Origin: Acidobacteriaceae bacterium KBS 83
GTDB taxonomy: Bacteria > Acidobacteriota > Terriglobia > Terriglobales > Acidobacteriaceae
Assembly (NCBI GenBank): GCA_000381585.1
Contig: KB906735.1
Location: 542,836 to 606,835, forward strand
DNA: 64,000 nucleotides
Reading direction: 5' to 3'
The position numbers and the translations under genes are program-made. The notes beneath the pieces were generated by a model. The model saw only the letters and a program-made list of their open reading frames with translations. It made no database searches and had not been told where the DNA came from. Shown here piece after piece: positions 32,581-37,253 of the stretch. How positions within the stretch are numbered: position 1 is the first letter of the stretch; each line of letters begins with the position of its first letter.

Positions 32581-33411
32581 TCACTTACCCGCGCTATCTC
32601 GCAGGAAGCGAATCAAATCCTGTCGCTCCTGTGGCTTTGCCACGTGAAACTCCATGTTGTTGCCGGGAACCAGTGCATCCGGATCAGCGAGCCACTGCTC
32701 CAGCGTCCTCTCGTTCCACACGATATGCGCCTTCGCAAGCGCCGGCGAATAGTCAAACCCCGCCAGTGATCCGGAAGCTCTCCCAAAGACTCCGCGCAGC
32801 CGCGGCCCTTCGCGGTTCTGCTCCATCGCGTGACATCCTGTGCATCGTCTCTCGAAAACATCCCTGCCGCGCATCCCATCGCCTTCCGTCACGATCTGCC
32901 CGGGCGAATCCGATACTCGCACTAACCTCCCGCGCGACCACTCATTCAGGGCAGCTACATCTGTATCCGTGATAGTGGCGTTACGGTGAATCACACGATA
33001 CTGCAGCGGCGGCATCGCGCGCCTCTTCACCAGGGTCGCTATCTCTGCCTTGAACACCTCCTGTTCTTCGGCGGAATACTGTTCCCAAAGGGACAGGTCC
33101 ATCGCATTTCGCGCCTCGACGATATCTCGCTCCATCAACCACGATATCGGCGCGAATCGGCCGTACAGCGGAGCCCGCGTCTGGGCCGAATGACAGTCCG
33201 CGCATTTCGTCGTCAGCATTTCGCGCACCGCTGGAGGCACGCCTGCATGTTCCATGATCACCCGCGGTTCATATCTCGGCCCCGGCCCATACAAACCTGC
33301 GTTCCCGAATGGATGAGCGCGGCCAAGCAGGAGCGACGAGAGCGCACCGACCAATGCGCCCGCGCAGATCACGATGGCGCGTCCAAGGCCGGTGATTTTA
33401 AGACCGGTCAT
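32581..33411 (-). CDS. Membrane-anchored cytochrome with haem-binding domain and class I cytochrome c fused
   Basis: 276 residues. An N-terminal membrane anchor (AIVICAGALVGALSSLLLG) is followed by a haem-binding domain with CADCH at 70-74 and the SWLMERDIVEARNAMDLSLW signature of the Haem_bd family. A second haem site, CTGCH at 190-194, lies in a mono-haem cytochrome c domain with GPRLRGVFGRASGSLAGFDY and a Met ligand likely in PGNNMEFHV. Thus two c-type haems sit on one polypeptide, probably in the periplasm. The ATG overlaps the stop of the metallophosphoesterase gene by four bases (ATGA), so the two are co-translated. Expression is probably ECF-controlled through the shared promoter. Confidence 0.88.
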   Translation of the reverse strand: MTGLKITGLGRAIVICAGALVGALSSLLLGRAHPFGNAGLYGPGPRYEPRVIMEHAGVPPAVREMLTTKCADCHSAQTRAPLYGRFAPISWLMERDIVEARNAMDLSLWEQYSAEEQEVFKAEIATLVKRRAMPPLQYRVIHRNATITDTDVAALNEWSRGRLVRVSDSPGQIVTEGDGMRGRDVFERRCTGCHAMEQNREGPRLRGVFGRASGSLAGFDYSPALAKAHIVWNERTLEQWLADPDALVPGNNMEFHVAKPQERQDLIRFLRDSAGK

Positions 33412-34439
33412 GCCTTCTCCGCCAGCGAGGAGTCCACGATCGCCAGGTGGCTCTGCCGCGCAATGTAGCGGACCTTCGTGACGCCCAGCACGCTCTCGAG
33501 CTTTCCAGCCGGAACCACCATGGGCCCCGCGTGGGACGCACTGCCCGGTGCCGGCTGGGGAAAGGCCGTCGATGTCGCTGTGTGGAAGGCAATGTTTCCT
33601 TCCACCTTTTGCACCGTCTGATGGATGTGCCCATTTAGCACAGTGACGGAACCAAAGCGCCGCAGATATGAAAGCGCCTCCGCGCCATCCTGCGTTCCCC
33701 AACCCCATTCCGGATACACCATCCACAGCGGAATGTGCGCGAAGATCACAATCGGCGTCGAAGCGGAGCGTGAGGCCAGATCACTCTTCAGCCACGCAAG
33801 TTGCGCCGGACCCAGTTTGCCCATGGCGTCGATCTGCAGCACATTGTTTAACCCAATAAAGTGCACGCCCTTGTGATCGAAGCTGTACCAGCCATTGCCG
33901 ACAGTGCCTTTGCCGAATCGCTCACGATACAGTGCGCCATCGTCGAGCGCCGTATCGTGCTCGCCCGGGACATAGAAGGTTTGGCCGGCTTTCGCATCCT
34001 TGATGATCTGCTGTGCCGTGTCGAACTCGGCTGCCTTCGACGACTGCGTGATATCGCCGGTGTGCAGCAGCAGATCCGGCTTTACCGAGAGATCGTTGAT
34101 CTTGCCGATCGCCAGCTTCAGCGTTCCCGACACATCCTGATTCGCTGCCTTGTTGAAGCCGATATGGCTGTCGCTGATCTGAACAAAGCTGAATCCGGAT
34201 CCTGCATGGGCATGCGCCGCATTTCCACCCGCGGCTCCAGCCGCCGCGGCAAACAGCTTGGACGTCGGCACACCGCCTACCATCGTCCACACTAGTCCCG
34301 TGCCGGCCCACGCCATGCAACTCAGAAAGTTCCGCCGGTCAATTCCATCACTGGCTGCGGATTCGGGTTGTTTCGCTCCCACGGGTGTAGCCTTCGGCGT
34401 CTCCTCGGGCGTACGGTTAACATCTGGCTTATCTTTCAT
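33408..34439 (-). CDS. Tat-exported calcineurin-like metallophosphoesterase
   Basis: 343 residues from ATG 34439, which has GGAGG at 8-base spacing; an ATG five codons upstream is less likely. A twin-arginine signal (DRRNFLSCMAWAGTGLVW) shows folded export. The metallophosphoesterase core has FVQISDSHIGF (DxH), LLLHTGDITQ (GDxx), YVPGEHDTA (GxHD, where most relatives have GNHD), VIFAHIPLW and VLNGHIHQ (GHxH). Two metals would be bound and a phosphoester or cyclic nucleotide cleaved; the substrate is unknown. It is the first gene of an operon with the two-haem cytochrome, reading away from an ECF sigma gene through a promoter with GGAATAA. Confidence 0.9.
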   Translation of the reverse strand: MKDKPDVNRTPEETPKATPVGAKQPESAASDGIDRRNFLSCMAWAGTGLVWTMVGGVPTSKLFAAAAGAAGGNAAHAHAGSGFSFVQISDSHIGFNKAANQDVSGTLKLAIGKINDLSVKPDLLLHTGDITQSSKAAEFDTAQQIIKDAKAGQTFYVPGEHDTALDDGALYRERFGKGTVGNGWYSFDHKGVHFIGLNNVLQIDAMGKLGPAQLAWLKSDLASRSASTPIVIFAHIPLWMVYPEWGWGTQDGAEALSYLRRFGSVTVLNGHIHQTVQKVEGNIAFHTATSTAFPQPAPGSASHAGPMVVPAGKLESVLGVTKVRYIARQSHLAIVDSSLAEKA

Positions 34440-34458: not shown

Positions 34459-34486
34459 GCAAACTGCGGGCTGCCGGACTTATTCC
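34459..34486 (-). promoter_or_regulatory. Candidate ECF promoter for the phosphoesterase-cytochrome operon
   Basis: On the minus strand this reads GGAATAA, 13 bases, then CAGTTTGC. The arrangement equals that of the divergent promoter for the sigma gene in hexamers and spacing. GGAAT is a typical -35 of ECF sigma factors. Confidence 0.65.
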
Positions 34487-34495
34487 GTCGCCGTG

Positions 34496-34525
34496 GGAAT
34501 AAACTCGCGAAAAATCAGTTTTCGT
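34496..34525 (+). promoter_or_regulatory. Candidate autoregulated ECF promoter for the sigma gene
   Basis: GGAATAA at 34496-34502, 13 bases, then CAGTTTTCGT. The same elements at the same spacing occur on the opposite strand nearby, which is strong internal support for one sigma factor using both. Confidence 0.65.
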
Positions 34526-34547: not shown

Positions 34548-35168
34548 ATGATGGCGCTGCTGCCCTGGGGCGTAAGCAAAACGAAGCGCACAGTCCATGA
34601 GAGTGTCGGTGGACCCTCTACATTCGAGGATCTGGCACTCCCGTTGCTTCCTGCGCTCTATAACGTAGCCTCCTGGCTCTCGCGCAATGCAACAGACGCG
34701 GAGGATCTTGTGCAGGAGACATTTCTGAAAGCACTTCGCGGATTCGATTCCTTTGAACCGGGCTCAAACTTCAAGGCGTGGATATTCCGCATATTGAGAA
34801 ATACCTACCTCACCTCACGCACAGGCCTTCGGGCACAGCGCACGGTCTCCCTCGACGAGCAGTTGGAAGAACAACGCGACTTCGGTCCGGCGATCTACCC
34901 GGAAGCAGCCATCGATCGATCGACTCCCGAAATAAACCTCATCCTCTCCGCGGATCGCGCCGCCCTTCACGACGCGATGGAAAAGCTCCCCGCGCCGCTG
35001 CTGGAAGTCATTCTCATGTGCGATGTGGAAGAGATGAAATACAAGGAGATTGCGTCGGTTCTCGATCTCCCCATCGGAACCGTGATGTCTCGCATTGCGC
35101 GCGCCCGTGCCGCCCTGCGAAAGTCGCTCGAAGCCGTTACCGCTTTGAACAGAGAGTCCCGCGCATGA
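34548..35168 (+). CDS. ECF-type RNA polymerase sigma factor
   Basis: 206 residues from ATG 34548 with GGGAAAGG just before it; a GTG eight codons upstream would leave the candidate promoter inside the gene. Sigma region 2 shows NATDAEDLVQETFLKALRGF and FKAWIFRILRNTYL. Region 4 shows MEKLPAPLLEVILMCDVEEM and YKEIASVLDLPIGTVMSRIA. The linker between them is fairly long. Its stop overlaps the anti-sigma gene (ATGA), the usual coupling for a sigma/anti-sigma pair. It probably directs transcription of its own operon and of the divergent phosphoesterase-cytochrome operon. Confidence 0.95.
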   Translation: MMALLPWGVSKTKRTVHESVGGPSTFEDLALPLLPALYNVASWLSRNATDAEDLVQETFLKALRGFDSFEPGSNFKAWIFRILRNTYLTSRTGLRAQRTVSLDEQLEEQRDFGPAIYPEAAIDRSTPEINLILSADRAALHDAMEKLPAPLLEVILMCDVEEMKYKEIASVLDLPIGTVMSRIARARAALRKSLEAVTALNRESRA

Positions 35169-35980
35169 CCACTCATCTTTCTGCCACCGTGCTCAACGCT
35201 CTCGTCGATGGTGAGCTCCCGGTCGAACAATTCGCTGCAACAAAACAGCATCTCGACCAGTGCCCCTCGTGCACCTCGAGCGCGCTCAGTCAGGCATTGC
35301 TGAAAACTGCTACCGCAAGGGCCGGCCAGAGATATACCCTGCCGCCTCAGTTGCAGGAGCGGCTGCGGCGCATTACATCGTCGCAGGAGTTGCATACCCC
35401 GCTCGACCGGCACGACTCTTCTGCGAAGATCTGGACGATGAGACGGATCGCCTCGTTGGCCTTGCCCATTGCGGCCGTCCTGTTGTTGCTTGTGTCGAGT
35501 TCTCTCCTTATGCAGAGGTATGGGAAGAACTCAGAGCGCGCCTCCATCGAGCAAGCTGCGCTCGTCGCACAAATCTTGGATCTGCACATCGCTACGCTGG
35601 CGTCAGATCAGCCGCCCGAGGTGATCTCCTCGGACCGCCATACCGTGAAGCCCTGGTTTCAGGGAAAGCTGCCCTTCAGCTTCAATCTTCCTGAGAATCT
35701 GCCCGCCGATACACACCTGGAGGGCGCCAACCTCACCTATCTCCACAATCGTGCAGTGGCGCAGCTTCTCTACAGCATCGGCCGCCATCGCGTTTCTGTA
35801 TTCATTCAGGAGCGGTCGCAGACTTCAACGACACAAAATCCACAGCAGGCGGAGCACTCGGGCTTTCACGTAACCGGCTTCGATACCAGCGATCTTGAAG
35901 TCACCGCGATCAGCGACGTAGATCCCTCGCGCTTGGCCGGTCTCGTACGAGCGATCGAAGAGGCACAGACGAAGCATTGA
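35165..35980 (+). CDS. Membrane-bound zinc-finger anti-sigma factor
   Basis: 271 residues. The N-terminal anti-sigma domain has the zinc ligands His29, Cys33 and Cys36 in HLDQCPSC (HxxxCxxC) after LNALVDGELP. One membrane helix follows at about 95-116 (ASLALPIAAVLLLLVSSSLL). The extracytoplasmic part (about 117-271) contains ISSDRHTVKPWFQGKLPFSF and later GGRHRV-like strands, and ends with LVRAIEEAQTKH. This domain resembles the sensor part of zf-HC2 transmembrane factors. The 4-base overlap with the sigma gene fixes the start. The likely job is to hold the sigma factor until an envelope or redox signal. Confidence 0.92.
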   Translation: MTTHLSATVLNALVDGELPVEQFAATKQHLDQCPSCTSSALSQALLKTATARAGQRYTLPPQLQERLRRITSSQELHTPLDRHDSSAKIWTMRRIASLALPIAAVLLLLVSSSLLMQRYGKNSERASIEQAALVAQILDLHIATLASDQPPEVISSDRHTVKPWFQGKLPFSFNLPENLPADTHLEGANLTYLHNRAVAQLLYSIGRHRVSVFIQERSQTSTTQNPQQAEHSGFHVTGFDTSDLEVTAISDVDPSRLAGLVRAIEEAQTKH

Positions 35981-35993
35981 CGAAGGGAGTGAC

Positions 35994-37253
35994 TCAGGCC
36001 CCAGCGCGGCATTTCGCGACAATCAACGTGATGTCGTCGTGCTGCTCCTGCGGGCTGAAGCGTTGCACATCTCGAATGACAGACATGACCGTCGAGTGCG
36101 CGGTTTGCCCACGGTGGCGCTTCAACGATTCGATCAGGCGCTCTTCGCCGAACTCCTCTTCGCCATCGCCGAAGGATTCCGTTACGCCGTCGGTATAGAG
36201 CGCCAGCGTATCGCCGGGCGTAAGCTGGCACTCCACCGATGGACTCTCCCACTCCCGAAACAATCCCAGAACCGTACCGGTGGAGCGGAGCCATTCAACT
36301 GCGCCATCCTGTCGCAGCAGCAGCCCCGAAAGATGGCCGCAGTTGGTGTATCGAAGGCGCTGGGCGATGTCGTCATATTCAGCAAAGAAGACCGTGGCGT
36401 ATGCACTGTCCGCCGTGTTCTCAAAGAAGAGCCGGTTCACCGATTGCAGAAAACGCTGCGGCTGTTCGCGCGCCAGGGCAAACTGGCTGCGCAGATTCGC
36501 CTGCAGGTTGGCCATCAGCAGCGCGGCAGCGATTCCCTTGCCTGAAATATCCCCGACGAACAACCCGACCTTCTCCTCCCCGAGAGCGAAGAAATCGTAG
36601 TAGTCGCCTCCGACGTGGCGGGCCTGAATGCAGGCACCCGCATAATCGAGTGTCCTGAGCGCGGGAAAGGTCTGCGGAAACAGCCTGGCCTGTACCTGTT
36701 TTGCGATTTCCAACTCCTGGGCCAGACGCCTTTCCGATTCGAGCCGCTCAGCATTCGCCCGGCGCTGCGCCTCAATCTCCCGGCTCATCTCATCGGAGCC
36801 AAGCAGGTCGAAGGAGTTTTGATCCGCATCGCAAAACACCGCCATCGTGCCACCCCACAACTGCGGCTGCGGAGGATGAAGAAAGCGCACTCCACGGCTC
36901 AGCCAAAGATCGTAGGTCGCAAAGATGTCTTCGGCGATGAAAGCAATCTGAGTTGGCCGCCCGATGAGCTTGTATCTCTCAGAGCCGCGCTTCGGAGCCA
37001 CCACCGCGAGGATCGCGCTGCCATCGGGAGGCGCGATGGCCATCCACCGGCCGAATTCAAAACGAGACTCGGCCAGCACGCTGAAGCCAAGCTGATCGAC
37101 GTAGAACTTCAGCGCCCGGTCGTAGTCCCGAACAAAAACGTTGGACTTGAACAGCCGGAGGTAAGGACTCTGCTGCTCGGCCTGAACCGCCCTGTTTCCG
37201 GCCAGTTCTACCCGAGTGTCCTTCGTCTGCGAAATAGCACTCTCCGGGTTCAA
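35994..37253 (-). CDS. VOC (glyoxalase-like) domain fused to SpoIIE/PP2C-type serine phosphatase
   Basis: 419 residues from TTG 37253, which follows GAGGAG at 7-base spacing; a GTG 22 codons upstream lacks such a site. A VOC/glyoxalase-fold domain covers about 34-153 (KSNVFVRDYDRALKFYVDQL and MAVFCDADQNSFDLL). A coiled-coil linker (155-190) leads to a PP2C domain (about 195-417) with metal-binding GGDYYDFF and VGDISGKGIAAALL and the final DDITLIVAKC. PP2C proteins of this type dephosphorylate anti-anti-sigma factors. The VOC part would be an unusual sensor. Convergent with the anti-sigma gene; stops are 13 bp apart. Confidence 0.9.
   Translation of the reverse strand: MNPESAISQTKDTRVELAGNRAVQAEQQSPYLRLFKSNVFVRDYDRALKFYVDQLGFSVLAESRFEFGRWMAIAPPDGSAILAVVAPKRGSERYKLIGRPTQIAFIAEDIFATYDLWLSRGVRFLHPPQPQLWGGTMAVFCDADQNSFDLLGSDEMSREIEAQRRANAERLESERRLAQELEIAKQVQARLFPQTFPALRTLDYAGACIQARHVGGDYYDFFALGEEKVGLFVGDISGKGIAAALLMANLQANLRSQFALAREQPQRFLQSVNRLFFENTADSAYATVFFAEYDDIAQRLRYTNCGHLSGLLLRQDGAVEWLRSTGTVLGLFREWESPSVECQLTPGDTLALYTDGVTESFGDGEEEFGEERLIESLKRHRGQTAHSTVMSVIRDVQRFSPQEQHDDITLIVAKCRAGA

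Follow-up and report, generated by a model that had tools for sequence, protein, structure and literature searches.

Divergent ECF26-like promoter sites pair a sigma/anti-sigma operon with a metallophosphoesterase-cytochrome operon in an acidobacterium

Introduction

The RpoE-RseA-RseB system of E. coli and the MucA-MucB system of P. aeruginosa both include a membrane anti-sigma factor. RseB and MucB are separate proteins, whereas in the locus described here the equivalent domain, a periplasmic domain with an RseB/MucB-like predicted fold, is fused within the anti-sigma factor.

In the literature searched, ECF26 sigma factors are tied largely to sulfite in Alphaproteobacteria. The sections cited here describe S. 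meliloti ECF26 promoters that read GGAATAA...GTC, 26 bases by our count (PMC6180224), and GGAAT/CGTC preceding genes of sulfite-oxidising enzymes (PMC6527743). From GGAAT/CGTC-type promoters, the sulfite-responsive sigmas RpoE1 and RpoE4 drive sorT and the genes for a cytochrome c and a pseudoazurin (PMC3511301, PMC6180224, PMC6527743). In this RpoE4/RpoE1-EcfR4/EcfR1 system, the sigma gene is followed by one for a membrane anti-sigma factor with an N-terminal domain, a TM segment, and a periplasmic domain (PMC6180224), and a GGAAT...GT promoter lies both before the sigma operon and before sorT-sorU-azu2 (PMC6180224, PMC3511301, PMC6527743). In RpoE6-EcfR6, also ECF26, the sigma gene is divergent from its target, a serine protease (S8 peptidase) gene (PMC6180224). 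Elsewhere, the B. subtilis stress sigma SigM controls the metallophosphoesterase-like enzyme UpsH (YpbG), with no electron carrier mentioned in the cited part of that report (PMC11898649), and a HOCl-responsive sigma, considered here but not taken up as a comparison, is described in the cited part of a Brucella report (PMC8315932). B. japonicum EcfF, also considered, has a promoter of a different, GTAAC type in the section cited (PMC3420878).

Here, we describe a locus in Acidobacteriaceae bacterium KBS 83, lying in a window (the whole stretch of DNA analysed) of 64 kb, in which genes for an ECF sigma factor and a membrane anti-sigma factor diverge from genes for a metallophosphoesterase-fold protein (MPE) and a cytochrome. 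It resembles RpoE4/RpoE1-EcfR4/EcfR1 in its gene layout and paired promoter sites, and RpoE6-EcfR6 in the divergence of sigma and target. Its target enzyme has a metallophosphoesterase fold, whereas those of S. meliloti are a sulfite oxidase (with cytochrome c and pseudoazurin) and a protease, and its promoters end in GTT at 25 bases, unlike the GTC at 26 of the RpoE4/RpoE1 system. The likeness to UpsH is one of description, not of sequence. In the full-text, mostly open-access literature that we searched, we found no system joining an ECF sigma, a metallophosphoesterase, a cytochrome c or cupredoxin, and an anti-sigma factor, although ECF classification tables may list the neighbourhood. The original remark, that no described system with this combination was known, therefore holds for the target module within that literature and fails for the sigma and its promoter type, which are known and ECF26-like; the part not found there is the module of an MPE with a GEHD metal motif and an electron carrier. 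The locus offers a promoter that is sharply defined, faces out of a single gap in both directions, and recurs across several phyla, along with a predicted regulon of small size. Its metallophosphoesterase family, with an altered metal motif, accompanies three unrelated kinds of electron carrier, which would be hard to explain for a plain phosphatase.

Results

Two copies of one promoter motif share a 108-bp gap

Between the ATG start codon of the MPE gene (34439) and that of the sigma gene, taken as its first in-frame ATG (34548), lie 108 bp, and the two operons and their predicted promoters are arranged as follows.

32581..33411, minus strand: fused cytochrome with Haem_bd and cytochrome c domains (PF14376, PF00034) and an N-terminal hydrophobic stretch
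33408..34439, minus strand: metallophosphoesterase (PF00149) with a twin-arginine (Tat-type) start at R35 and R36, and PGEHD replacing GNHD
34461..34486, minus strand: predicted ECF26-type promoter of the MPE-cytochrome operon, exact match to GGAATAA-N13-CAGTTT
34496..34521, plus strand: predicted ECF26-type promoter of the sigma/anti-sigma operon (autoregulation), exact match to GGAATAA-N13-CAGTTT
34548..35168, plus strand: ECF sigma factor with sigma70 regions 2 and 4 (PF04542 and PF08281, above cut-off), placed in a tree with ECF26 references
35165..35980, plus strand: predicted membrane anti-sigma factor (weak Pfam matches below cut-off, zinc motif, predicted model)

The minus-strand site reads GGAATAAGTCCGGCAGCCCGCAGTTT and the plus-strand site GGAATAAACTCGCGAAAAATCAGTTT; they have the same -35 block, -10 block, and 13-base spacing, their spacer sequences are unlike, and their -35 blocks stand back to back with 9 bases between. 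Exact searching and gene order thus bear out the initial description of one motif, equally spaced, on both strands of a single 108-bp gap, with one copy facing the ECF sigma gene and the other a metallophosphoesterase with a Tat-type start and a fused cytochrome. These are the only two matches in the 64-kb window, and 100 dinucleotide shuffles of the window gave none. The genome-wide motif search that had been proposed returned three exact copies in 6.25 Mb, the pair itself and one on another contig. The empty shuffles, the rarity in the genome, and the conservation of the sites compared with reversed sequence (see below) rule out a chance occurrence, and the promoter pair is almost certainly real.

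The site pair is conserved on both sides in relatives

Searching 150 family genomes with the sigma (E <= 1e-30), we found it in 61, the genome of the window included, and retrieved 40 family regions around it for comparison. An MPE gene lies divergent from the sigma gene within ~400 bases in 20 of the 40, with a window-type cytochrome gene next in nine of these and an MPE of a distant type (35-40% identity) in six; the remaining half or so have no divergent MPE match or another gene order. At least one GGAATA[AG]...GT[T/C] site is present near the sigma start in 33 of 41 loci (the window plus the 40 regions).

We also counted sites upstream of sigma and MPE genes separately, dropping identical upstream regions and those shorter than 120 bases for the GTT motif. 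This motif precedes 54 of 71 sigma genes (>=45% identity), with none in reversed sequence and a mean of 0.4 (maximum 2) over 20 shuffles, and 49 of 98 MPE genes (>=55% identity), again with none reversed and a shuffle mean of 0.2. For the GT[T/C] form, the figures are 73 of 112 (sigma genes) and 70 of 107 (MPE genes), and in each set there are no reversed matches and one complement-only match. Where both upstream regions are available (90 loci), 47 have both sites, 15 only the MPE-side site, 14 only the sigma-side site, and 14 neither. Many of the loci are related, so these counts are not independent events; the sites occur in Acidobacteriota, Verrucomicrobiota, Armatimonadota, and Burkholderiales.

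Site form follows the sigma lineage. In the same 90 loci, 76 of the 86 sites belonging to sigmas with at least 45% identity are 25 bases long with a GTT end, and 29 of the 39 sites of more distant sigmas are 26 bases long with a GTC end, matching the S. meliloti rpoE4 promoter in length and ends as given in Table 1 of PMC6180224. Three loci (L193, L203, and L208) have a sigma-side site that ends in GTT and an MPE-side site that ends in GTC, so a single sigma may be able to read either -10 form.

Disappearance of one of the motifs from near relatives would have counted against the pair. The five genomes whose sigmas are closest retain both, in varied form. The -35 block is GGAATAA at both sites in our own genome and in G064, and GAAATAA at both in G034. 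In G088 and G040 it is GGAATAA at one site, the sigma-side one in G088 and the MPE-side one in G040, and the opposite site has GGAATAG and CGAATAA, respectively. The two promoters in the sigma-MPE gap of G034 (L037) thus share one G-to-A change (GAAATAAA); two further sites elsewhere in that genome read GGAATAA.

The two sites point outward from a single gap, an arrangement also possible for the inverted repeat of a regulator, and might therefore be operators bound by some other transcription factor instead of sigma promoters. Each one is consistently oriented toward its gene, mostly with a length of 25 or 26 bases and a GT at the -10 end, whereas the distance between the sites differs among genomes, and lone sites stand before some di-haem oxidoreductase genes (see below). 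The same form also precedes mapped transcripts in S. meliloti, in the part of PMC6180224 cited. On the varying distance and the fixed orientation and length we set the operator reading aside as very improbable.

The sigma factor is ECF26-like

To place the sigma, we built a quick maximum-likelihood tree of 78 rows, from which one short sigma (70 aa) and a duplicate of the window sigma had been dropped. The module sigmas form one group with two RpoE6-type ECF26 references from S. meliloti pSymA and Agrobacterium pAt (SH-aLRT 84, under the 95 mark), and the references fall inside it (96*), so the sigma does fall with ECF26 members, represented here by two references of one type. We called these RpoE6-type from their divergent S8 peptidase gene, as reported for rpoE6 in the cited part of PMC6180224. 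Outside the group lie 27 other sigma-70 family proteins of our own genome and the RpoE of Klebsiella.

The promoter consensus and anti-sigma layout of ECF26, as set out in the cited sections of PMC6180224, agree with the window system. The consensus has -35 GGAATA and -10 GT, and the window has a conserved GGAATAA...CAGTTT. The downstream gene likewise appears to encode an anti-sigma factor with an N-terminal domain, one TM helix, and a periplasmic C-terminal domain; the periplasmic domain of ECF26 anti-sigmas is somewhat like RsiW; a fold search with that of the window leads to RseB and MucB. We file the sigma as ECF26-like, and its grouping together with the promoter match points to a regulator of a known kind.

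The longest sigma ORF opens at a GTG at 34524, with in-frame ATGs at 34548 and 34551. The GTG precedes the expected transcript start, 6-8 bases past the -10 block, and translation therefore more likely begins at ATG 34548 or 34551. The start of the anti-sigma gene overlaps the sigma stop codon. Its product matches zf-HC2 and MucB_RseB_C in Pfam, both weakly and below cut-off, and carries an N-terminal zinc motif, H-x3-C-x2-C, in which H29, C33, and C36 are invariant among 41 aligned sequences. There is one main hydrophobic stretch, near residues 95-116, and in a predicted model (pLDDT 88) Foldseek pairs the periplasmic domain with RseB and MucB (best E 2.8e-5); by this model the domain is like the C-terminal domain of RseB/MucB.

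With 34 sigma-70 family matches over cut-off in the genome, another sigma could read the sites, and cross-activation within ECF26 is reported for S. meliloti in the cited parts of PMC6180224 and PMC10880074. That the sites are real ECF promoters read mainly by another sigma of the genome, or by several, nevertheless seems improbable: in several phyla they adjoin this sigma, with a length and -10 end that follow its lineage (25-base GTT versus 26-base GTC), and the 27 other family members tested fall outside its group. We infer that this sigma reads the paired sites.

A di-haem oxidoreductase gene is a probable second target

A strict form of the motif, GGAATAA-N13-YRGTT, has five sites in our own genome and none in the control. 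The exact copy on another contig lies 127 bases before a gene for a 431-aa di-haem oxidoreductase (DHOR, PF06537). Another strict site, C2:713216, lies 21 bases before an acyltransferase gene, and one at C5:573560 has no clear gene downstream; we do not claim either as a regulon member, the latter lacking a clear gene and the former having been examined in our own genome. The C5:573560 site is on the 5' side of a 129-aa ORF (no Pfam match, by eye like the start of a PAP2-type gene) and faces the opposite way, where no clear gene lies. G034 has a PAP2 gene with a site, which we take to be similar to vanadium haloperoxidases. A looser search with GGAATAA-N15/16-GTT proved too noisy to serve as a regulon list, giving 16 matches versus four in the control, several of them inside long ORFs.

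Among 13 relatives the strict form has 41 sites versus eight in the control, and single sites there are accordingly not proof. In G118 such sites precede two MPE genes, a Tat-type ferritin-like gene, and two DHOR genes. An in-frame TGA splits one of the latter; what is left of the other is 135 aa long and diverges from an MPE gene, with one site on each side. G118 has two MPE modules (L260 and L261).

We then looked upstream of the DHOR genes as a set, dropping one locus without upstream sequence and one gene that had been present twice. A site precedes four of the 30 distinct genes with upstream sequence (our own, the G118 pair, and a G073 gene whose site has the form GGAATAT) and is absent before the other 26. 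With four in 30, and the two in G118 damaged, DHOR genes in general are ruled out as targets. In our own genome, the DHOR gene is probably a second, unlinked target and not a general one, and the regulon probably extends beyond a single operon, with limited support for DHOR from relatives. The proposal that the sigma controls itself and one target operon is favoured by the conserved site pair, but its 'one' is probably too narrow given the exact site before the DHOR gene. At G000:C5 (L034:7790-13585), the DHOR gene adjoins a lactonase-type beta-propeller gene.

The metallophosphoesterase has an altered metal motif and keeps company with electron carriers

Calcineurin-like metallophosphoesterases typically carry the metal motif GNH[D/E]. 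The window MPE scores 45.2 bits against PF00149 (gathering score 21.5) and keeps the remaining motifs DxH, GD, and GHxH; in place of GNH[D/E], however, it has GEHD. The nearest solved structures, both by sequence profile and by fold, are Rv0805 and GpdQ, in which the Asn of GNHD is a metal ligand; the window MPE has Glu160 at this position, and differs from both in its Tat-type start and its linkage to an electron carrier. Its AlphaFold model is weak (pLDDT 64.8) and supports the fold class only. The cytochrome gene, whose start overlaps the MPE stop codon, encodes two CXXCH motifs, at residues 70 and 190.

The MPE is patchy in the phylum, being present in 21 of 199 sampled genomes. From a scan of named genomes with an MPE alignment we took the best 80 of 552 loci, picked by MPE similarity and not by their neighbours (57 Acidobacteriota, 15 Verrucomicrobiota, three Armatimonadota, two Gemmatimonadota, two Planctomycetota, and one unassigned). 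GEHD is present in all 80 of these best homologues, where it reads PGEHD, and in nine of ten distant ones; among the other nine PF00149 loci of our own genome, eight have GNH[D/E] and one has neither form. Of the same best 80 of 552, 66 have an ECF sigma match no more than 3 kb from the MPE (in 41 it is divergent and at most 700 bases away) and 57 have an anti-sigma match; several of the contigs are short.

In 77 of these best 80 of 552 loci, an electron-carrier gene follows the MPE at a distance of no more than 1.5 kb. The carriers in the 77 are cytochrome homologues (31), cupredoxins (28), a cupredoxin plus DUF2231 (five), and homologues of a DUF2231 protein with or without cytochrome c (13). 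Carrier matches are found in none of 53 loci at 2000-3500 bases downstream, in one of 60 at 2000-3500 bases upstream, and in 16 of 71 at 50-1550 bases upstream, these last including same-strand DUF2231 genes 5' of the MPE. Within our own genome, CXXCH sites follow only the GEHD gene among ten PF00149 loci. In seven relatives, where 30 of 65 PF00149 places were examined for CXXCH and cupredoxins were not counted, a CXXCH ORF follows five of five GEHD genes, one of 22 GNH genes, and none of three others; over the eight genomes together, the figures are six of six GEHD genes and one of 34 other metallophosphoesterases. The promoter motif precedes three of the five GEHD genes and none of the 25 other metallophosphoesterases in the seven relatives.

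Several loci vary this arrangement. In Gemmatirosa (L075:4953-6263), the MPE frame continues into a C-terminal cupredoxin-like domain. Six loci (L043, L047, L052, L068, L073, and L074) have the distant MPE type (35-40% identity) next to the same sigma group, with a cupredoxin gene after it; PGEHD is present in five of these MPEs. On plasmid pBVIE03 of Burkholderia vietnamiensis G4 (L080), a GEHD-type MPE gene follows one annotated as a cytochrome c assembly protein; no sigma is annotated within 5 kb of this MPE, and chromate-resistance genes lie slightly further upstream.

The MPE had been called a phosphatase. The PF00149 fold supports this, but an identity as a phosphatase is not established, with the metal motif altered and the gene tied to electron carriers. 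It is quite possible, if below an even prospect, that the same switch serves an ordinary envelope phosphoesterase made under stress, which could for example release a lipid carrier or salvage a phosphodiester, with the cytochrome as a passenger. SigM control of UpsH, which frees undecaprenyl phosphate (PMC11898649, in the part cited), is a parallel, and the PF00149 score and the kinship with Rv0805 and GpdQ agree with it. Such an enzyme does not account well for a carrier gene of three unrelated types downstream in 77 of the best 80 of 552 loci, for its rarity behind GNH-type paralogues (one of 22 in related genomes), or for GEHD in all of those 80.

The company of carriers suggests that the exported enzyme is perhaps not a plain phosphatase, and there are hints that it does redox work instead; this is the boldest part of our reading. 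We speculate that the calcineurin-like fold of the GEHD proteins has been turned to redox work, with the Asn-to-Glu change adding one carboxylate ligand to a two-metal site and electrons exchanged with the operon's carrier (a di-haem cytochrome c, a cupredoxin, or a DUF2231-linked cytochrome c), the ECF26 sigma making both against a periplasmic oxidant or electron-accepting toxin. In this specific form the proposal is tentative, and more likely wrong than right.

The design of an exported enzyme plus a cytochrome or cupredoxin is alike in the S. meliloti sulfite response, and the locus could be an acidobacterial version of it, sensing sulfite or another sulfur oxyanion that the exported enzyme and cytochrome would process. 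No molybdenum sulfite oxidase, however, is present among the 20 neighbour and target proteins run through Pfam, and we consider this unlikely.

A model for the switch

The promoter pair, its two-sided conservation, the gene order, the protein domains, and the enzyme-carrier linkage can all be read from the sequence, and on these grounds we think it reasonably probable that the locus is an autoregulated ECF26-type sigma/anti-sigma switch with a divergent operon for a Tat-exported MPE and a cytochrome, a probable DHOR target, an envelope signal, and a redox-stress output. The sigma would recognise GGAATAAA-N12-YRGTT and read outward in both directions from the 108-bp gap. Rightward transcription would yield the sigma and its membrane anti-sigma factor, and leftward transcription the Tat-exported metallophosphoesterase-fold enzyme and a membrane-anchored di-haem cytochrome; the unlinked DHOR gene would be a probable second target. 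In unstressed cells, the anti-sigma factor, with a predicted cytoplasmic zinc-type domain, one TM helix, and an RseB/MucB-like periplasmic domain, would hold the sigma at the membrane. An envelope signal, presumably sensed by the anti-sigma through its RseB-like domain, would release the sigma, and a positive loop would increase the sigma, its anti-sigma, and expression of the target operon in concert. In the periplasm, the enzyme and electron carrier may then act jointly on oxidative or other redox-active stress, and the output, judged from the company these genes keep, would be redox protection.

Flanking genes

A second, unrelated phosphoesterase gene (PF04185; 31210-32166) lies on the same strand ~415 bases past the cytochrome gene, and has no match in the 40 family regions. 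On the other side, a gene fusing a glyoxalase-like domain to a SpoIIE-type phosphatase (35994-37253) is convergent with the anti-sigma gene, and among the 40 family regions this fusion is found at the equivalent place only in L035.
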